A stretch of 45,034 nucleotides of DNA, taken from NCBI GenBank assembly GCA_031288415.1, contig JAITRL010000144.1:1-45034 (forward strand), written 5' to 3'. Source of the stretch: Deltaproteobacteria bacterium. Lineage in GTDB: Bacteria > Desulfobacterota > Desulfarculia > Adiutricales > Adiutricaceae. Made by a program: the position numbers and the translations under genes. Below the pieces are notes generated by a model that saw nothing but the letters and a program-made list of their open reading frames with translations, was not told the DNA's origin and did no database searches. This document shows positions 20,873 through 29,780 of the stretch, one piece after another (position 1 is the first letter of the stretch; every line of letters starts with the position of its first letter).

Positions 20873-21556
20873 TCAGGCGACCCGCCTGCGGCTCTGGGCG
20901 AGGATCTCGCAGAGCCTTACCGTGTCGAAGACGGTGGCGGCATAGTTGTCGGCGCGGCTGTGGTCCTTCTGGGCGGGGGTCACCTTGACGCCGCTGATGA
21001 AGATGGCGGGAGAGGAGGCCAGGCCGCGGAACTCCCTCAGGGCCCCGATGGTGTCCTCCAGGCTTCTCAGGCAGCTGGAGAGGTGCACAGAGAGCCAGAC
21101 GACGTCAGGCTTCCAGTCCCTGGCGCTCTCGACGAAGCGGCCCGCGCTCACGTCCACGCCCAGGTCGCTGACCTCGAAGCCGTAGGCGTTCAGAAGCGCC
21201 CCTGCTATGTTCTTGCCGAGGCTGTGGATCTCGCCGCGGACGGTGCCTATGAGGACCCTGCCCTTGTAGCTGCCCTTGCCCCCTGGCTTGATGCGGGGGG
21301 AGACCAGGCTGATGACCCGGTTGATTATCTCGCCCGCCATGATGAGGCTGGCGATATAGTACTGCCCCGAGTCGTAGAGCTCGTTTATCTCCATCATGGC
21401 CGCCTCGCAGGCGGCCAGGATGCACTTGGGGGGCATCTCCTTCTCGTTGAGCCTCCGCGCTATGTCCACCGAAGACCCCACCTCCAGGGCGATGAGGGAC
21501 TGGATAAGGTTCACGAGGCAGGTCTTTTCGGGGCTGTACTTAATCATCCCAGACAC
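20873..21556 (-). CDS. B12-binding-domain protein with altered corrinoid motif
   Basis: A 227-residue two-domain protein shaped like MtaC/MtbC corrinoid proteins: a helical N-terminal cap (about 30-90) and a Rossmann-type B12 domain (about 99-210). The cobalt-ligand histidine (His111) is kept in GEIHSLGKN, but the family DxHxxG reads ExHxxG. The later S-x-L site reads SVHLSS, and the GG before the last strand reads ISGVKV. It may therefore bind corrinoid without being an efficient methyl carrier. GTG at 21556 overlaps the GntR gene's stop by 17 bases; ATG at 21547 is an alternative. Coupling to a GntR regulator suggests a sensory role (inference). A diverged methyl-carrier is the alternative. 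Confidence 0.85.
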   Translation of the reverse strand: MSGMIKYSPEKTCLVNLIQSLIALEVGSSVDIARRLNEKEMPPKCILAACEAAMMEINELYDSGQYYIASLIMAGEIINRVISLVSPRIKPGGKGSYKGRVLIGTVRGEIHSLGKNIAGALLNAYGFEVSDLGVDVSAGRFVESARDWKPDVVWLSVHLSSCLRSLEDTIGALREFRGLASSPAIFISGVKVTPAQKDHSRADNYAATVFDTVRLCEILAQSRRRVA

Positions 21557-22310
21557 CTATCCTGGTAGTGAAGGAGATGTTCTCCTTGGGCGTCATGAAC
21601 CAGCCAGAGCCCAGGGGCTCGTCGGCGTAGCCGTAGAAGGTGTAGCGGATCTTGAAGGCGGCCGCGGCCGCGGAGGCCTTGAGCAGACCGGCCTCCCGCC
21701 CGGAGAGAACGCAGGGCTCGAGCCTCAGGCTGGACTTCTTGACGAAGCCGTTGTCCTGACCCGTGAAAAGCGAGGAAAGCGAGCTGGCCTCCATTTCCGA
21801 CTCCACGATGGGGCTCTTGGGATCGTATTTGAGGTAGGCCTTGTTGAGCAGGAAGGGCTGGCCCTTGTGGGAGACCAGCCGTTCCAGGACCACGGTCATC
21901 TCCCCGGGCTCTATCTCCAGGCTTTCCGCGGCCCGCTCGGAGGCCTCGGCCATGCCCGCGTGGAGGATCTGGATCTCCACGCTCCCGCGGTCCTCGAGCC
22001 GCTCGATGAGCCCCTCCATGTTGAAGGCCGCCCTGGTCCAGTCCGGACCGCACACGAAGGTCCCGCTCCCGTGCACCCTGCGCAGGATGCCCTTCTCGGC
22101 CAGCACGTGTATGGCCTGCCGCACGGTCATGACCGCCACCCCGTAAGTCTTGCTGATGGCTGCCTCCGCCGGGATACGGGTCCCCTGAGGGAACTCCCCG
22201 TTGCAGATCTTCTCCTTGATGAGGGTGGCAAGCTGAACGTAGGCGGGCCCCTTGAAGGAGCTTTTTATGTTCACGGCCGGGAGAGGCCTTCTGTCTTCTT
22301 GGCTGGTCAT
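21540..22310 (-). CDS. GntR/HutC-family regulator with UTRA domain
   Basis: A 256-residue transcription factor. The winged helix-turn-helix spans residues about 15-85 (IPAEAAISKTYGVAVMTVRQAIHVL, then RRVHGSGTFV). A UTRA effector domain follows to the C-terminus (from about 95; RLVSHKGQPFLLNKAYL). ATG at 22310 is where the family N-terminus begins; the frame is open further upstream in low-complexity sequence, and no clear ribosome binding site is present. It is co-transcribed with, and overlaps, the B12-domain protein. The only nearby palindrome resembling a HutC-class operator is at 24399-24422, in front of the methyl-transfer genes, so these are its likely targets (inference). The UTRA ligand is unknown. 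Confidence 0.9.
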   Translation of the reverse strand: MTSQEDRRPLPAVNIKSSFKGPAYVQLATLIKEKICNGEFPQGTRIPAEAAISKTYGVAVMTVRQAIHVLAEKGILRRVHGSGTFVCGPDWTRAAFNMEGLIERLEDRGSVEIQILHAGMAEASERAAESLEIEPGEMTVVLERLVSHKGQPFLLNKAYLKYDPKSPIVESEMEASSLSSLFTGQDNGFVKKSSLRLEPCVLSGREAGLLKASAAAAAFKIRYTFYGYADEPLGSGWFMTPKENISFTTRIGVWDD

Positions 22311-22614
22311 GGAGGAAGAGCCTTTGGGTCGTCGCTGAAAGCCCCTGCGGGCGGGCAAGCGGGAAGCCGGACAGGGAAGGGCCCTTGAGGCCGCCTGGCC
22401 CATGCCGTGCCATGAGTCCGGGGCGGGGCCCGGGCAAGCCGCGAAGGGCGCCCGGACAGGGGCTGAAATGCCCGGTCGCCGTGAGGCAGGCGGCAAAGGG
22501 CCTGCGGGAGAGGCGGCGCGGTTCCCGGCTGCAGGCAACCGCCTCAGAGGGCCGGCGCCGCGCGGGCGTCTCATGGCGGAGCTAAGCCTTATGCCCGGCT
22601 CAGATCTTCGCGAA

Positions 22615-22643
22615 ATGATATACCCCGCACGGGGAAAAATCCA
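22615..22643 (-). promoter_or_regulatory. Candidate promoter for the GntR/B12-domain operon
   Basis: On minus, TGGATT and TATCAT are 17 bases apart. The -10 is good (five of six), the -35 weak. The spacer contains the palindrome CCCCGTGCGGGG. The implied leader is about 295 nt. Confidence 0.35.
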
Positions 22644-23699
22644 GAGGCCCCGTTCAGGCGGGCCCCGGGCTTTTCCAGGCTGCCGTCCCCTTGCCCCGCA
22701 GGCGGCCCTCGCCCTCCTTGCTGGCCGGCCTGGATTCCGGGCCCCGGTGACCGGCGAGGCCGCGGCCTTCAAGGGCGCCGCGCTCTCAAGGGGGCGGGGG
22801 TCCCTGGCCGGGCCCGGAGCAGGCCGAAGACAACGTGCCGGAGAGGCCCGCTCAGGTCCAAAGCGACCCTTGCCGGGGCGCCCGGGCCTGCGGTTGCGCA
22901 GGCAGGCTGACGGCGATCCGCCGGCTCCGGGCGCCGGGACAAAATCCTGGAGGAGGCGGCCCGGAGCCTCCGAGGCTTGCTCTTGGCAGCCGCAATACGC
23001 TTGATATGCGGCCCGCCGCGTTCCAGGCGTCGCCTGAATCAGGAACGGCCGAAGGATTAAGCCCGCAGGTCACTGCGGGCCGCCTCCCGGAGACGAGAGG
23101 CGGGCCCGTTTGAGCGCCGCGCGCCGCCGGGTCCAGCAATGCCCCGGCTGGGACCGCAGGGCTGGAGGGGCGGCCGCGGCCGCCTGCGGCCGGCCGGGTT
23201 CCATCCTTAATTCTATTGGAGGCGTCGGCCGCGATTTCCCTCGCGCCGCCGGAGCCTTCCGCCTGCAGGGCCCGTCGTCGCACTGATACGCCGGCCGCAG
23301 GCCATAGGGGCGGATATTCCTTCCGCCTGATGTCACCGGCAGGCGGAATCCTGCCGGGTCCCGGCCTGGACTAACGGCGACAGAAAAAATTGTTCCTTTA
23401 TGGTACATATTCGTTTCCTTAAGGTTACTTCACGCGGTACAGGTTCAGTGCCCGCCGGGCAAATTGAGGCTATTTTTCTTGAAATTTTCGGCATTTACCT
23501 ATGACAAAGCCCGGCCGCGCCCCTAACATGGCGTTGCCTGCTTCGCGTCTCCCGTTCAGCCAGGCGCCGCGCGGCCCCTAATTTTTTAGCTGACCCTGTT
23601 TTCGGCGCGCTCAGGGGCCAGCGGATAACCGGAGAATGTCTTGGGGCGGTCATGGCCCGGCCCGTCGCGAGGCTGGGTTAAATCAGGCGCAGGCAAACG

Positions 23700-23880
23700 A
23701 GAATTCTAAGTGTTAATGTTCAACTATTAAAATGATATTGTTGTATATAATAATATATAAATGATATTTTAAATAATAAAATAAATTTTAGGTGCTGAAG
23801 CAAATAATTTTTAAACTGAGATATTCTACCCGAAACAACGAGTTAGGGAATAGGACTTTATCCATTAATTAGCAATCAAA
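23700..23880. other. AT-rich patch
   Basis: About 180 bp composed almost only of A and T words (for example TATATAATAATATATAAATG), with no gene. It lies between the GntR gene and the methyl-transfer operon. It could be a protein-binding or melting-prone element, or foreign DNA. Confidence 0.5.
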
Positions 23881-24398
23881 TTAACATCAGCCCTCCCGCA
23901 AATTCTTGTCGCAAAAAAAAGCCCCGGGCTATTGAAAACCCCAGTTCCTTCTGCTAATATGCGTGACATAAGAAAAGGTTGGAACGCCTCCCCCCCGGCA
24001 GGCCGACCACCCTGCTCTGGGCGCTTCCGGCCGCAAGCGGCCGTCAGCCGATGAAGGCTCCCGCGCCCTCCTCCGCTCAAGAGGCTTCCAGAGCATGGCG
24101 CGCCGCCTGACTGCGCTTGCGGACTGTCCGCTTTACGCCAAGGCGGCCTTCCCCGACCGAATTTTTTCAGGGCCTGCAGGCGGTTGGAACCCCGTGACCC
24201 CAGGCCTTGTCCCGGGCGAACTGCATTTATGCCTGCGGCCAACGAAACCGACGGACCTGTTCCTTCAGCGAAGTGATTTTTTTTCCACGGAAATGGCCAA
24301 AACCGCTCGCCTCGCCAAGGAAGGTTCCCCCTGCCGACAAAAAAATTCAATCTTGTCGGCCATTTGACCCCAGCTCGTCAAGCGCCGGGGGTCGGCAA

Positions 24399-24422
24399 AA
24401 AAATCTAGACATCTAGATTTTT
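24399..24422. promoter_or_regulatory. Perfect 24-bp dyad, likely operator
   Basis: Arms AAAAATCTAGA (24399-24409) and TCTAGATTTTT (24412-24422) are exact complements around CA. It ends 3 bases before the -35 box of the next promoter. The core ATCTAGAC matches seven of eight positions of GTMTAKAC, the consensus I recall for the HutC class of GntR regulators, on both strands. The linked GntR/UTRA protein is the obvious candidate binder. Confidence 0.65.
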
Positions 24423-24425
24423 CCC

Positions 24426-24454
24426 TTGATTTCGGGCGCGAATTTCGCTATAAC
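24426..24454 (+). promoter_or_regulatory. Promoter of the G3E GTPase gene and methyl-transfer operon
   Basis: TTGATT (-35) and TATAAC (-10) with a 17-base spacer. Predicted transcription start is near 24461, leaving a leader of about 60 nt before ATG 24522. Confidence 0.65.
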
Positions 24455-24521
24455 CTCAGGACGAGCAGTGACAGCGTGGCTCTCGCAGGTCCTTCCGCCC
24501 TTCTCACGCCAGGAGCATTAG

Positions 24522-25205
24522 ATGCGGACCGTTCTCTTCACAGGTTTGCTGGGGTCCGGGAAATCCACCGCCCTGTTAAGCCTGGCGTTCTTTCTCAAGC
24601 GTAAGGGCGGGCCCAAGTCCGTGGCCGCTGTAGAGACCGAATCGGGAGAGAAGGCCGTCGCGAGCGAGCTCGCCGCCGACAAGGGCTACCTGACTACGGA
24701 CCTCACCCGCGGCTGTATCGGCTGTACCTCGCTGACCTCCGGCCTCTGTAACACGCTCGAAAATCTTCTTCACTCCTGCCCGCCTCCCTCCTGGCTCCTC
24801 ATCGAAGCTTCCAGCCTCGGCTTTCAAACCATTAAAGACACGGTAATCCAGTCCCTCGCCAACGAAGCCCAGCCTTTCACCGTCCTCATGATCGAGGCCG
24901 GGGGCTGGGCTGAATTGCATCAGGAGGCCCCGCTCCTCGCGGACGGCCTCGCGGCCGGGGCCGACCTTGTTCTGGTCAACATATTCGATCATTTGTCCCC
25001 CGACACCATTTCCGCGATCGAGGCTCAAGTCTCCAGGGTTAACCCCGCCTGTCCCGTAAAGGCGGCCCGCGCCCCGGACCTTGACCCGGCCGACGCGTTC
25101 AGAAACTTCTTAGAGGCCGGACCCGAGATTGGGGCCGGGCCTGCCTGTCAGGCGGCGCGCGGAACGGCTGATGAGCGCGCTTCCGTTCCTCCCGCCATGG
25201 CCTGA
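24522..25205 (+). CDS. G3E-family (CobW-like) P-loop GTPase
   Basis: A 227-residue P-loop protein of the G3E class (CobW, HypB, UreG, MeaB), which load metals or cofactors into enzymes. Walker A is GLLGSGKST (residues 8-16). ETESGE (38-43) matches the family ENEFGE, and GCIGC (Cys65, Cys68) stands where CobW proteins have a CxCC metal site. LLIEASSLG resembles the Walker B/switch region. The guanine-specificity NKxD is replaced by NIFD. There is no CobW C-terminal domain, so it is shorter than COG0523 proteins of 300-400 residues. ATG 24522 has AGGAG 7 bases upstream. It is the first gene before mtaB and mtaC, suggesting help with zinc or corrinoid loading of the methyltransferases (inference). 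Confidence 0.85.
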   Translation: MRTVLFTGLLGSGKSTALLSLAFFLKRKGGPKSVAAVETESGEKAVASELAADKGYLTTDLTRGCIGCTSLTSGLCNTLENLLHSCPPPSWLLIEASSLGFQTIKDTVIQSLANEAQPFTVLMIEAGGWAELHQEAPLLADGLAAGADLVLVNIFDHLSPDTISAIEAQVSRVNPACPVKAARAPDLDPADAFRNFLEAGPEIGAGPACQAARGTADERASVPPAMA

Positions 25206-25372
25206 CCCGGCAGTCCCGACCGCTACCGCCGTCTTCCGGGGCGGCGTAAGCTTCCAGCATACCAGCGGCGACCCAGCTTCGCCGTCCGGTCTCCAGCTGT
25301 GTCCCCCGGCCCGTCGGCTTTCCGGCGGACCAACGCTCTTTCTATACACTTTGTACATCGGAGGTAGCCTTT

Positions 25373-26746
25373 ATGTTGTACAAGACCCTGGCCATCAGCA
25401 ATCCTGATGACCTTATCTTCGGAACCGCACCCAAGCCCGTGACCACCCGCAACTACGGCCTGGTCATCGGCGGGGGTACCCTGTACCCCGAGCTCAACTT
25501 CACGGTTCCGGCCATGAAGCTCGAGCAGTCCACCGTCAAGGAGATGTACGGGCACTACGAGCAGATCTCCCGCGAGGCCCTCAAGCGCGCCGGCGAGCTC
25601 GAGTCCCCGGGCGTGGTCCTCGAGTGCGAGACCCTCCCCCAGCAGACCGAGTTCCCCGAGTGGTCCGAGACCATCGCCAAGATCCTCCTCGAGGCCATGG
25701 CGAAGGAGAACGCCAGGAGCGGGCTCAAGAGCGCCCTGCGCTTCACCCCCAACGACAACCGCGACATGATCCGCCCGCCCCTCATGAGGAGCGGATACCA
25801 CCTGGAGAGGATGCTCGACACCTTCGAGCGCGTGACCAAGGCCGGCGCCGACCTCATCAGCATCGAGTCCATCGGCGGCAAGGAGACCCACGACGAGTCC
25901 CTGATCAAGTGTGACATCGCCGAGGTCATCTTCGCCCTGGCCGTCCTCGCGGCCCGCGACATGAAGTTCCTCTGGGACAAGATCGTCGACATCTGCAACA
26001 AGAACGGCTCCACCCCGGCCGGCGACAGCTCCTGCGGCTTCGCCAACACCGCCATGGTGCTGGCCGAGCAGAAGCTCATCCCGAACTCCTTCTCCGCCGT
26101 CGTCCGCGTGCTCGCCACCGTCCGCGCGATCGTCGCCATCGAGAGCGGCGCGAAGGGCCCCGGCAAGGACTGCGCCTACGAGAACCCGTTCCTGAAGGCC
26201 ATCACCGGCAACCCGTCCTCGGGCGAGGGCAAGACCGCCGCCTGCGCGCACCTCTCCCCGGTGGGCAACATCGCCAGCGCCTACACCGACCTCTGGAGCA
26301 ACGAGTCCGTGCAGAACATCATGCTGCTCGGCGCCATGGCCCCCACCTCCTACATGGAGTCCCTCATCTACGACTGCCGCCTCTACAACGGCCTGAAGCA
26401 GTACGGCCACGGCAAGGCCCTCCGCGACGCGATGATCCGCAGCGACGCGCCCCTGGACAGCCGTGCCTTCGTCTTCGCCCCCCAGAACGTCATCCTCTTC
26501 GCTAAGACCATCGTCGAGAGCGCCAACCGCTACGACGCGGCCAAGAACGTCTCCAAGGTCGTCGCCACGACGATCCTCGAGGCCGGCAAGAGGGGCGAGA
26601 CCAGGGTCAGCAAGCCCGAGACCAAGTACATCCAGAAGATCATCTCCACCGTCGACGCCCTGCCCAAGGACGAGGGCGAGTTCATCGAGAAGATCCTCAA
26701 GAAGATCGACAAGACCAAGCTGAAACTCGAGGAGTACGGCCTGTAG
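25373..26746 (+). CDS. mtaB: Methanol:corrinoid methyltransferase, MtaB type
   Basis: A 457-residue TIM-barrel enzyme that moves the methyl group of methanol to the cob(I)amide of its corrinoid partner. It aligns along its whole length with Methanosarcina MtaB of about 460 residues. The zinc ligands known there as Glu164, Cys220 and Cys269 correspond to Glu165 (ISIESIGGKE), Cys221 (PAGDSSCGFANTAM) and Cys267 (GPGKDCAYEN). The KTAACAH and WSNESVQ blocks are also conserved. ATG 25373 has GGAGG 8 bases upstream. It lies 167 bases after the G3E gene and 383 before mtaC. TATACA at about 25350 could be the -10 of a second promoter, but I see no good -35. Codon choice is extremely biased to C/G-ending codons, implying high expression. 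Another C1 substrate is possible but the ligand set favours methanol. Confidence 0.93.
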   Translation: MLYKTLAISNPDDLIFGTAPKPVTTRNYGLVIGGGTLYPELNFTVPAMKLEQSTVKEMYGHYEQISREALKRAGELESPGVVLECETLPQQTEFPEWSETIAKILLEAMAKENARSGLKSALRFTPNDNRDMIRPPLMRSGYHLERMLDTFERVTKAGADLISIESIGGKETHDESLIKCDIAEVIFALAVLAARDMKFLWDKIVDICNKNGSTPAGDSSCGFANTAMVLAEQKLIPNSFSAVVRVLATVRAIVAIESGAKGPGKDCAYENPFLKAITGNPSSGEGKTAACAHLSPVGNIASAYTDLWSNESVQNIMLLGAMAPTSYMESLIYDCRLYNGLKQYGHGKALRDAMIRSDAPLDSRAFVFAPQNVILFAKTIVESANRYDAAKNVSKVVATTILEAGKRGETRVSKPETKYIQKIISTVDALPKDEGEFIEKILKKIDKTKLKLEEYGL

Positions 26747-26780
26747 GCCCAGCCCCCTCCGCTTGGCCCTGCCAAGACCT

Positions 26781-26832
26781 TACCCGAGGTTTTCCGGCGA
26801 GCAGCCTCACGCGCCGCCGGAAACCTTGGGTA
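26781..26832 (+). terminator. Long hairpin after mtaB
   Basis: TACCCGAGGTTTTCCGGCG pairs with CGCCGGAAACCTTGGGTA, an almost perfect 18-bp stem, without a T-run. It may be a 3'-end stabiliser, processing site or attenuator that sets mtaB above mtaC expression. Confidence 0.45.
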
Positions 26833-27097
26833 CCTAACCTAAGGCCTCTTCAGGCGTGACAGGCCCCGCACAAACCACAGGCTCCGGAAGGTCCCTAACC
26901 GTCCGACGGGCCTCGCGGGGAGACGCCGCGCAGGAAGGCTGAACTCCACAGCCGTCCAGGCCGGGGCGCCCGGACCCGCCGAACTCAGGCCTTATGCCCG
27001 CAACCACAGAACCTTCCGCCGGACAGCCCCTGTCCGGCCAGCAAGCCGCCGCCGGCGCATCTAGACGACTCCAGATCCCAGGCGGCCGCATTTCCAG

Positions 27098-27117
27098 TTT
27101 TTCAGTCCACTGAAAAA
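27098..27117. promoter_or_regulatory. Perfect 20-bp dyad overlapping the mtaC ribosome binding site
   Basis: Arms TTTTTCAGT and ACTGAAAAA around CC. The right arm runs into AAGGAG, the mtaC ribosome binding site. It could be an operator, or in RNA a stem that hides the translation start. Confidence 0.5.
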
Positions 27118-27129
27118 GGAGAGCCACTA

Positions 27130-27753
27130 ATGTCCATCAAAGACGTGTATCAGGCAGTAGTAGATTTCGACGACGACGCGATCGCCGGACTCGTTGACAA
27201 AGAGGTCAAGGCCGGGACCCCCGCGCAGAAGATCCTCGACGAGGGCCTCATCGCCGCCATGGACTACGTCGGCAAGCTGTTCTCCGAGGGCGAGCTGTTC
27301 GTCCCCGAGATGCTCATGGCCGCCACCGCCATGAAGGCCGGCCTTACCGTCCTGAAGCCCGTGCTGGCCAAGGCCGGGTCCTCAACGATCGGCACCTGCG
27401 TCATCGGCACCGTGAAGGGCGACCTGCACGACATCGGCAAGAACCTCGTCGGCATGATGCTCGAGGGCGGCGGCTTCGAGGTCTACGACCTCGGCTCCGA
27501 CGTCGAGCCCGCCAAGTTCGTCGCGGCCGCCAAGGAGAAGAAGGCCCAGATCGTCGGCCTCTCCGCCCTCCTGACCACCACGATGCCCTACATGGAGGAG
27601 ACCGTCAACGCGCTGAAGGAGGCCGGCCTGACCTCCAAGGTGATCATCGGCGGAGCCCCCGTCACCGCGGCCTACGCGGAGAAGATCGGGGCCGCCGGCT
27701 ACTCCGATGACGCCCCCGGCGCCGTGGAGCTCGCCCGCAGCCTGCTGAAGTAG
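27130..27753 (+). CDS. mtaC: Corrinoid methyl-carrier protein, MtaC type
   Basis: A 207-residue methionine-synthase-like corrinoid protein. A helical cap (about 1-85) is followed by a B12-binding Rossmann domain with the base-off motif GDLHDIG (cobalt-ligand His100), SALLTTT and IIGGAPV, all intact. It would take methyl from MtaB and pass it to the pterin enzyme encoded downstream. ATG 27130 has AAGGAG 7-8 bases upstream. Like mtaB it uses almost only C- or G-ending codons, suggesting high expression. Contrast it with the B12-domain protein at 20873-21556, whose motifs are altered. Confidence 0.93.
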   Translation: MSIKDVYQAVVDFDDDAIAGLVDKEVKAGTPAQKILDEGLIAAMDYVGKLFSEGELFVPEMLMAATAMKAGLTVLKPVLAKAGSSTIGTCVIGTVKGDLHDIGKNLVGMMLEGGGFEVYDLGSDVEPAKFVAAAKEKKAQIVGLSALLTTTMPYMEETVNALKEAGLTSKVIIGGAPVTAAYAEKIGAAGYSDDAPGAVELARSLLK

Positions 27754-27772
27754 TCTCCTTTAAGAACCTCCA

Positions 27773-27826
27773 GGGGTTTTCCAGGGCGGCCAGAGACGCT
27801 CCCCCCGTCCGGCCGCCTGAAACCCC
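27773..27826 (+). terminator. Hairpin after mtaC
   Basis: GGGGTTTTCCAGGGCGGCC can pair with GGCCGCCTGAAACCCC, with bulges. It lies 20 bases past the mtaC stop and has no T-run. Termination or 3'-end protection is inferred. Confidence 0.4.
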
Positions 27827-27884
27827 GTAATCCGGGCTGTCGCCGCCCGGCGTTCTTTCCGCCCGCCCTGACCGACTACACTCC

Positions 27885-27950
27885 AAAACATCCTGTTTTA
27901 CCGTGTAGGCCTATGACATAACGGCGATGTACTTATTTCATGGGCCTACA
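27885..27950. promoter_or_regulatory. Two dyads upstream of the mtgA promoter
   Basis: First, AAAACA-TCC-TGTTTT at 27885-27899. Second, TGTAGGCCTATG (27904-27915) and CATGGGCCTACA (27939-27950), eleven of twelve paired, with a 23-base gap. They lie 160-230 bases before the -35 box and may be binding sites or an RNA 3' structure of the mtaC message. Confidence 0.4.
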
Positions 27951-28110
27951 TTCGATTTTCCCCGTAACCCCGGACCCGCAGGGCCGCCGCGCGCCACCTA
28001 AGGCCCCGGTTGCCCCCCCGCAAGGCCTAAGTGGCCGGGTCTTACGGGAAGCCGGGCGCATCGGAGCGCGCCGGAGCCGCCGCAGCGGACAAGTTTTCCG
28101 GACATGCCCT

Positions 28111-28139
28111 TTGCTTTTCCTCCCGTTTTGCCTTATACT
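28111..28139 (+). promoter_or_regulatory. Promoter of the mtgA-like gene
   Basis: TTGCTT (-35) and TATACT (-10) with a 17-base spacer. The transcript would start near 28146, giving a leader of about 318 nt. Confidence 0.6.
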
Positions 28140-28463
28140 CCCTGACAACTGAAGAAATCCCATAGTCGGCTCCCCCCCGGATGTGAAGATTCCCAAATCA
28201 GCCTCCGCCTGCCGTTCCCTGCGGCGGCGAAAGCCCCGTTGCATCCGGAAGCCGGCCTTGATCCAGATTTCAGACCGGTTTTTTTTTGTTTTTCAGGCCC
28301 TTCGGGCCTGGCGGAAGCCCCGCCCCGGCGGCGGGGCCCAGCAGAGCCACCCTCCCCGGACGGCAGCGGGCCGCCGGGGGTTCCAGAGAAGCCGCCCCTG
28401 CGGCGGGGCCGGAATCCAGGCCAACCCATATCCGCCTTCCGAGGCGCATTCAAGGTGACATAG

Positions 28464-29261
28464 ATGATAATCGTAGGCGAGTTGATTAACGCCAGTCGCA
28501 AGAAAATCAAGGAAGCGATCGAAAAGAAAGACGCCGACTACATCAAGGAAATCGCGATCAACCAGGACAAGGCGGGCGCGAGCTACGTCGACGTCAACGC
28601 CGGCGTGTTCGTGGGCCAGGAGCCCGAGTACCTGGTCTGGCTCGTCGAGACCGTGCAGTCGGTGGTCGACAAGCCCCTCGCGCTGGACAGCCCCGACCCC
28701 AAGGCCATCGAGGCGGCGATGAAGGTCCACAAGGGCACCCCGATGCTCAACTCCATCTCGATGGAGAAGGACCGCTGGGCCAAGCTCTCCCCCGTCATCG
28801 CCAACACCGACATCAAGGTCGTCTCCCTGTGCATGAGCGACGCCGGCATGCCCACCACCGCCGTTGACCGCGTCAAGATAGCGGGCGACCTGGTCGATGG
28901 CCTCACCAAGATCAACATCCCCCTCGAAAACATCTACATCGACCCGCTGGTCCAGCCCGTCGGCACGGATTACACCTTCGGCATCGAGTTCCTGAAGGCG
29001 GTCACCCAGATCAAGGAAAAGTTCGCGGGCGTCCACATCATGTGCGGCCTGTCCAACATCAGCTTCGGCCTGCCCGAGCGCAAGTTCCTCAACCGCATCT
29101 TCATGGGCCAGGCCATCATGGCGGGCCTTGACGGCGCCATCATCGATCCCCTTGACAACGCGATGATGGGCACCATCGCCGGCGCGGTCGCCCTGATTGG
29201 CAAGGACAAGGGCTGCCGCGGATACCTCAAGGCCTTCCGCGCCGGGCTGGTCAAGGCCTAA
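28464..29261 (+). CDS. mtgA: Methyl-tetrahydrofolate:corrinoid methyltransferase (AcsE/MtgA type)
   Basis: A 265-residue pterin-binding TIM-barrel enzyme of the AcsE/MtgA/MtvA group, which exchanges methyl between a corrinoid protein and tetrahydrofolate. Pterin-site residues known in AcsE as Asp75, Asn96, Asp160 and Asn199 correspond here to Asp75 (LALDSPDP), Asn96 (MLNSIS), Asp160 (IYIDPLVQP) and Asn198 (CGLSNISFGLPER). ATG 28464 has AAGGTG 6 bases upstream. Located after mtaB and mtaC, it most likely transfers methanol-derived methyl from MtaC to tetrahydrofolate, feeding the methyl branch of the Wood-Ljungdahl pathway. It could instead be the genuine AcsE for the corrinoid iron-sulfur protein, but no acs genes are nearby. 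Confidence 0.9.
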   Translation: MIIVGELINASRKKIKEAIEKKDADYIKEIAINQDKAGASYVDVNAGVFVGQEPEYLVWLVETVQSVVDKPLALDSPDPKAIEAAMKVHKGTPMLNSISMEKDRWAKLSPVIANTDIKVVSLCMSDAGMPTTAVDRVKIAGDLVDGLTKINIPLENIYIDPLVQPVGTDYTFGIEFLKAVTQIKEKFAGVHIMCGLSNISFGLPERKFLNRIFMGQAIMAGLDGAIIDPLDNAMMGTIAGAVALIGKDKGCRGYLKAFRAGLVKA

Positions 29262-29780
29262 GCCTCGTCTTTCCCGAATTTCCCCGCTCTTCTCGGAGCG
29301 CTTCCCCCTGCCAAGCCCCGCCGCATCCCCAGCGGCGGGGCTTCGGCGTTTCAGGCGCCGCTTTCCGGCCCCGGCCCCCTCTCCCTTGCCTCCCTCCCGC
29401 TCCCCCCGGCTTTCCCGGCCGGCCCGCCTGCCTGAGGATCGCCTCCCTGCCGCAGGCAGGCTTTTCCCGCAGGCCTTCGCAAGGCTTCCGGGCCGCCTGT
29501 TCAGCCCTTCCCGCGGCAAGCCTCCCATGGCCGGCCTTGGCGAGGCCTCGCAGGGCTTTTTCCCGGGCTCGGTTTTGGGTTATCCTGCGCTTGAGCCGCC
29601 GGCCCCCGCCAAGCCCTGAGGGCGGCTTCCGCGTGTCCCGGCGCGGAGGCCCCGCGCCCTCGCGCCGCCTGCGCCGGGCCCGGCCGTCTTCCGCCCCCCG
29701 CCCGGCCCTCCCGGCGCCTCTCCACCTTAACCCGACCCGTTCCGGCGGGGGCCAGCCCCGCTTCTTTAGCCAGGCACCTT
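29262..29780. other. mtgA-nadK intergenic region
   Basis: Contains the mtgA terminator and then a pyrimidine-rich stretch (about 29370-29410). No gene seen. Confidence 0.55.
29313..29343 (+). terminator. Hairpin terminator after mtgA
   Basis: Perfect 12-bp arms AAGCCCCGCCGC and GCGGCGGGGCTT around a 7-base loop, 50 bases past the stop. The T-rich tail is weak. Confidence 0.6.

Follow-up and report, generated by a model that had tools for sequence, protein, structure and literature searches.

Acetate-forming bacteria of other lineages are known to convert methanol to methyl-folate. In Moorella thermoacetica, and similarly in A. woodii and E. callanderi, the three-component methanol:tetrahydrofolate (THF) methyltransferase MtaA1-MtaC1-MtaB1 contains a small THF-type MTII (the 29.7 kDa MtaA), feeds the Wood-Ljungdahl pathway and is served by an external activator of the RACo type (PMC13391211). 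The gene order MtaB-MtaC-MtgA is found in Bacillota UBA4845 (L084), and an MtgA-type MTII is also encoded close to MtaB and MtaC in the methyltransferase cluster of Clostridium luticellarii (L076). Genes of the G3E type have been linked with methanol methyltransferases since 2009, when subgroup 13 of COG0523 was reported to cluster with mtaABC/ramM in Methanosarcina and Clostridium botulinum (PMC2770081), and a G3E gene lies immediately downstream of MtaB in a member of the Planctomycetota (L032) and in Kuenenia (L033), whose MtaB proteins are 57-58% identical to the one reported here.

The locus studied here is located on a contig of 45,034 nucleotides, analyzed as a whole and referred to as the window, from a 4.7 Mb draft genome (83% complete) of the family Adiutricaceae; the initial annotation was right in assuming a delta-like host. 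Termite-gut Adiutricaceae have already been proposed to be acetogens without sulfate reduction (PMC9137090), and the host lineage is probably associated with the termite gut. Like the Moorella system, the locus is predicted to encode a three-component methanol:THF methyltransferase that has a small THF-type MTII, depends on an external RACo-type activator and feeds the Wood-Ljungdahl pathway. It differs from that system, which resides in a Gram-positive host, in gene order, in the truncated G3E gene at its head, in a divergently oriented GntR-CorX gene pair and in the sharing of MtaC-MtgA within the family. L084 and L076 resemble the window in the arrangement of their methyltransferase genes, but no relatives of G3E, GntR or CorX were detected there, while L032 and L033 possess a full-length G3E protein with CICC and TKxD motifs and no MtgA, GntR or CorX nearby. 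With COG0523 subgroup 13, the window shares a G3E-type gene next to methanol methyltransferase genes; its product is a bare, motif-degenerate domain, and the two are likened by gene context.

Gene Arrangement and Predicted Gene Products

ORF calls combined with profile searches revealed four intact ORFs on the plus strand between positions 24522 and 29261, preceded by a divergent gene pair and a putative control region:

20873-21556, minus strand: CorX, stand-alone corrinoid-binding protein (PF02310 and PF02607), second gene of the divergent pair
21540-22310, minus strand: GntR/UTRA transcriptional regulator (PF00392 and PF07702), overlapping CorX and conserved beside it
24399-24422, no strand: perfect inverted repeat AAAAATCTAGA-CA-TCTAGATTTTT, candidate operator, holding the dyad TAGACATCTA at 24406-24415
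24426-24454, plus strand: candidate promoter TTGATT (24426-24431), 17 nt, TATAAC (24449-24454), conserved with the dyad in relatives
24522-25205, plus strand: G3E (CobW/HypB/UreG-type) NTPase domain without C-terminal domain, assigned by PF02492, motifs and fold
25373-26746, plus strand: MtaB, methanol:corrinoid methyltransferase (PF12176, 503.9 bits; zinc ligands aligned)
27130-27753, plus strand: MtaC-type corrinoid protein with both B12-binding domains and His100
28464-29261, plus strand: MtgA/AcsE-type methyltransferase (corrinoid to THF), assigned by PRK07535 and pterin-site residues

The row of G3E, MtaB, MtaC and MtgA genes described in the initial annotation is confirmed by Pfam and PRK07535 matches, with the correction that the module ends with MtgA at 29261 and not at 29343. 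The gaps between consecutive genes amount to 167, 383 and 710 nt. Because of the latter two, co-transcription as one compact operon is uncertain. These two gaps, considered as possible sites of hidden RNA genes, are of similar length in relatives; their sequence is conserved mainly within the genus and beyond it in short stretches only. The regions 22311-24398, 26747-27129 and 27754-28463, which flank the module or lie within it, are long and contain no convincing genes, and no cobalamin riboswitch was detected near the module when the window and five relatives were scanned with Rfam. The gene set is not a product of chance: relatives from four genera have MtaB proteins with 87-95% identity and the same gene order. 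The order in related genomes, which the initial annotation had suggested to examine, is divergent CorX-GntR followed by G3E-MtaB-MtaC-MtgA-NAD kinase and is kept in genera g1, g2, g5 and g8 wherever contigs are long enough.

MtaB (457 aa) matches PF12176 over its full length (cut-off 25 bits; positions 4-460 of 460 in the profile). In a full-length alignment with Methanosarcina barkeri MtaB (2i2x, 36% identity), Glu165, Cys221 and Cys267 correspond to Glu164, Cys220 and Cys269, which are established as the zinc ligands. The MtaC-type protein (207 aa) yields 101 bits with PF02310 and 76 bits with PF02607, and its His100 is embedded in DLHDIG, which fits the DxHxxG motif. MtgA (265 aa) passes PRK07535 (344 bits vs. 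a cut-off of 259), and Asp75, Asn96, Asp160 and Asn198, the established contacts of the pterin site in such enzymes, are conserved in comparison with 2yci and 4o0q. The initial annotation was right about these residues. Among PDB entries, the THF methyltransferase of Desulfitobacterium hafniense (4o0q/4o1e/4o1f) is closest to MtgA in sequence; its four pterin-site residues are conserved, and unlike the window protein it belongs to an O-demethylation system. An assignment of MtgA as the AcsE of CODH/ACS was rejected on the basis of its score with NF040758 (120 vs. 370 bits) and of a separate AcsE-like gene in the acs cluster; it is a second enzyme, distinct from the AcsE of this genome.

The NCBIfam equivalog models specific for methanol are not reached, neither by MtaB (NF040651, 384.9 bits vs. 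a cut-off of 720) nor by the MtaC-type protein (NF040655, 126.7 vs. 420 bits), the latter being closer to the MtgC/MtbC models, which also score below their cut-offs. We take NF040651 to be built on methanogens, and low scores with archaeal models of this kind are expected as normal for bacterial homologs.

A search of 98 genomes of the phylum detected MtaB in no family other than that of the window. In a phylogenetic tree, the family proteins form one clade (SH-aLRT 100) with a long stem (0.43 changes per column), which groups with two Planctomycetota sequences (moderate support, 85) inside bacterial sequences from Verrucomicrobiota, Planctomycetota, Bacteroidota and Bacillota. This pattern makes a horizontal gain of MtaB by the family likely. 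Viral contigs and plasmids searched for MtaB yielded none, and therefore do not offer a mobile-element context. MtaB in a Gram-negative host is not unusual, as it is common in other Gram-negative phyla; what is uncommon is an MtgA gene in its vicinity, present within the fetched stretch in only two of 75 other loci (both Bacillota; many of the stretches are short).

The G3E Protein

The 227 aa product of the first gene matches PF02492 (59.9 bits) and has an intact P-loop (GLLGSGKS), but PF07683, the C-terminal domain of CobW, is not matched and the tail is disordered. In the window's genus, NKxD is replaced by VNIFD or similar, ExxG by EASS with loss of the glycine, and the metal motif CxCC reads CIGC, whereas it is CICC in g2/g6. 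Guanine specificity and perhaps catalysis are in doubt for this genus. Of the CobW-like GTPase postulated in the initial annotation, a G3E domain with P-loop encoded by the lead gene stands, and the label "GTPase chaperone" is doubtful because the C-terminal domain, NKxD and the ExxG glycine are lost. Nor is the location next to MtaB notable as such, given that it has been known since 2009 (PMC2770081) and is widespread: 14 of the 75 MtaB loci from other phyla have a G3E gene nearby, among them those of the close relatives L032 and L033, and the association recurs in Planctomycetota, Verrucomicrobiota and Bacteroidota. The stronger copies from other phyla comprise 310-355 aa and contain CICC, while those of the family have about 180-230 aa.

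An obvious guess at the role of this protein would be a zinc chaperone for MtaB, and we consider a working metallochaperone/GTPase dedicated to loading MtaB possible, though short of probable. It would be in line with a G3E gene adjacent to MtaB in all 13 family loci (one of them with an MtaB fragment) and near it in the 14 loci elsewhere, with the clustering of COG0523 subgroup 13 with mtaABC (PMC2770081), with the g2/g6 copies, which mostly keep CICC and [NT]KxD, and with a structure model (pLDDT 74) showing a fold of the HypB/UreG/MeaB/YjiA type. The degenerate motifs and the missing C-terminal domain in the window's genus argue against it, as does the faster divergence of G3E (56-68%) compared to MtaB (92-95%) in that genus, and the protein may equally well function in corrinoid handling.

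A Common Acceptor Pair in the Family

With a threshold of at least 60% identity, MtgA orthologs are present in 23 of 26 family genomes that contain MtaB or MttB and in none of the 11 that contain neither (Fisher p 4e-7, ignoring relatedness); the three exceptions are drafts of 61-82% completeness. In four genomes (G000, which is that of the window, G006, G016 and G019) MtaB was found and no member of the MttB family. On account of this co-occurrence and of these four genomes, MtaC-MtgA is the common acceptor pair of the family and MtaB a substrate-specific partner. The pair stands without MtaB in g3, g9, g10 and g11, genera in which no MtaB was detected, and several of these contigs also carry a possible NAD kinase gene, judged by visual similarity. 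In G028, MtaB-G3E and CorX-GntR are about 1.9 Mb away from MtaC-MtgA, and in G031 a RACo gene adjoins MtaC-MtgA. The "complete module" of the initial annotation is accordingly complete with regard to its four genes, but not a dedicated unit, as MtaC-MtgA occurs without MtaB in many members and is unlinked in G028. MtaB, G3E and the divergent GntR-CorX pair would constitute a substrate-specific, regulated add-on to MtaC-MtgA, with roles of G3E and GntR-CorX that are predicted. A core common to the family (MtaC-MtgA with RACo), which accepts the methyl group, can in this way be told apart from additions that are specific for a substrate.

Pathway Context and Predicted Methanol Conversion

The initial annotation had made its proposal dependent on a folate C1 pathway and had suggested a search for acsABCD, metF and fhs. 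All of them are present: contig G000:C339 carries genes for AcsD, CODH (AcsA-type), AcsB (1036 bits), AcsC and an AcsE-like protein, and two FTHFS (fhs), MetF and two RACo-type activators are encoded elsewhere in the genome. A RamA-type activator is indeed absent from the window, but not from the genome if the two RACo-type proteins are considered. With these genes, methyl-THF can enter acetogenesis. An MtaA-type third partner was rejected, as the sole URO-D match (46.9 bits) is far below the MtaA cut-offs and similarly weak matches occur in genomes without MtaB. This divergent URO-D/MtaA-like protein (G000:C261:18726-19850; L261:3727-4851) has 374 aa, matches PF01208 and shows an H-x-C...C pattern.

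The locus very probably represents a bacterial methanol:THF methyltransferase system. The zinc ion of MtaB would activate methanol, and the Co(I) corrinoid of the MtaC-type protein would be methylated to methyl-Co(III), from which the MtgA-type enzyme would transfer the methyl group to THF. Methyl-THF would then proceed via AcsE, CFeSP and CODH/ACS to acetyl-CoA, part of it may be oxidized via MetF in the oxidative branch, and corrinoid in the Co(II) state would be rescued by one of the RACo-type activators. This route from methanol via MtaB/MtaC and MtgA to methyl-THF and the Wood-Ljungdahl pathway, the core of the initial annotation, is well supported by protein families, active-site residues and pathway genes, from which methanol as the substrate, THF as the acceptor and the direction of transfer are predicted. 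It is further in agreement with the gene order in four genera, the co-occurrence of MtgA (23/26 vs. 0/11), MtaB as the only MT-I found in the window's genome, and RACo beside MtaC-MtgA in G031. Points against it are the low model scores (385 vs. 720 for MtaB, 127 vs. 420 for MtaC), the gaps of 383 and 710 nt, which make co-transcription uncertain, and the fact that MtaC-MtgA is not MtaB-specific in the family.

The MtaB homolog could instead take the methyl group from a small compound different from methanol and pass it to the same MtaC-MtgA acceptor. The limited identity to the solved M. barkeri protein (36%), the score below the methanol-specific model and the long stem of the family clade (0.43 changes per column) would fit, and yet we consider this improbable: all three zinc ligands are conserved together with the residues around them, and we know of no member of PF12176 with another proven substrate. 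The recently described chloromethane system relies on a UroD-type enzyme and not on MtaB (PMC13222342). A CdmB-like haloalkane system was likewise rejected, as CdmB belongs to the UroD family (PMC13222342). That MtaB merely lies beside a house-keeping MtaC-MtgA pair serving other methyltransferases, with no single functional system, would agree with the MtaB-free pairs in g3, g9, g10 and g11 and the unlinked genes in G028 but is very improbable in view of G000, G006, G016 and G019, where MttB is missing and MtaB is the only MT-I found, and of the lack of MtgA in genomes with neither MtaB nor MttB, all of this in incomplete drafts in which absence is not proof.

The methanol:THF reading predicts that a lineage of acetogens so far discussed for acetogenesis from H2/CO2 also takes methanol, released from pectin. 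The lineage would then compete with methanogens of the same gut that also use methanol.

A Divergent GntR-CorX Pair and a Conserved Dyad

Upstream of the G3E gene, the initial annotation had overlooked a set of two putative regulatory genes and a DNA site that is the newest element of the locus. The start of GntR at 22310 was chosen from relatives and sequence and is the likely one (the longest ORF runs to 22772). CorX retains the cobalt-ligand His motif EIHSLG in relatives, and in 11 of the 12 other family loci the pair is found together with MtaB; the remaining locus lies at a contig end. The dyad TAGACATCTA abuts the TTGATT-17-TATAAC candidate promoter upstream of the G3E gene; the variant TAGATGACTA occurs in g6 and one g2 genome. 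Matches are located upstream of G3E in 12 of 13 family loci, at -100 to -167 (-296 in G009), with a second copy at -50 in G034 and two copies in both g6 loci. In 215 kb, 24 hits were found compared to about seven from a Markov background, counting both strands of symmetric sites; as the pattern was drawn from the same sites, the evidence consists only in the fixed position and the depth of conservation. Within the window by itself, shuffling does not mark the 14-mer as rare (0.34 occurrences expected with two mismatches).

We infer that GntR binds the dyad. It is conceivable, if rather unlikely, that GntR and CorX form a two-gene, corrinoid-based sensor of methyl-group supply, in which CorX would read the corrinoid state or substrate and tune GntR at TAGA(C/T)RTCTA beside the G3E-mtaB promoter, with the pairs in G034 and G007 acting likewise on other corrinoid methyltransferases via other operators. 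If true, this would be a new coupling of transcription to methyl-group chemistry, and the locus offers a candidate regulator together with its operator for the control of a corrinoid methyltransferase. In E. limosum, genes of the GntR type have been described in the vicinity of those for corrinoid methyltransferases (PMC4791908). A GntR gene overlapping that of its own corrinoid protein was not found described in our literature search, and the gene pair and DNA site beside the module appear to be undescribed so far.

Further GntR-corrinoid pairs adjoin other methyltransferase genes, namely MttB (G034) and an MtaC-type gene (G007). Pairs without the TAGA..TCTA dyad are located at G007:C189 (L248:5763-7254), G034:C98 (L246:1175-2606) and G034:C184 (L247:3531-5020). 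One operator common to all GntR-CorX pairs is not supported, as the motif is absent beside these other pairs.

Additional Observations in the Family

Pyrrolysyl-tRNA synthetase (TIGR02367, over cut-off) is encoded in 17 of 37 family genomes, in several cases beside an MttB-family gene with one in-frame TAG; loci include G003:C270:11956-14527, G012:C31:41969-44393, G002:C327, G004:C200, G001:C172 and G028:C1:2438241 (L262-L265). The family lineage therefore probably encodes pyrrolysine. In the window's genome, neither the synthetase nor an MttB gene with in-frame TAG was seen. The MttB family is expanded in G028 (25 matches), G014 (23), G030 (17) and others, and is missing in some members including the window's genome. 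Most family genomes show one AcsB gene, whereas G028 has two (G028:C1:2752282 and 3872187). The same genome contains a SAH riboswitch (RF01057, 40.5 bits, L021:15194-15253) about 5 kb downstream of MtaB.
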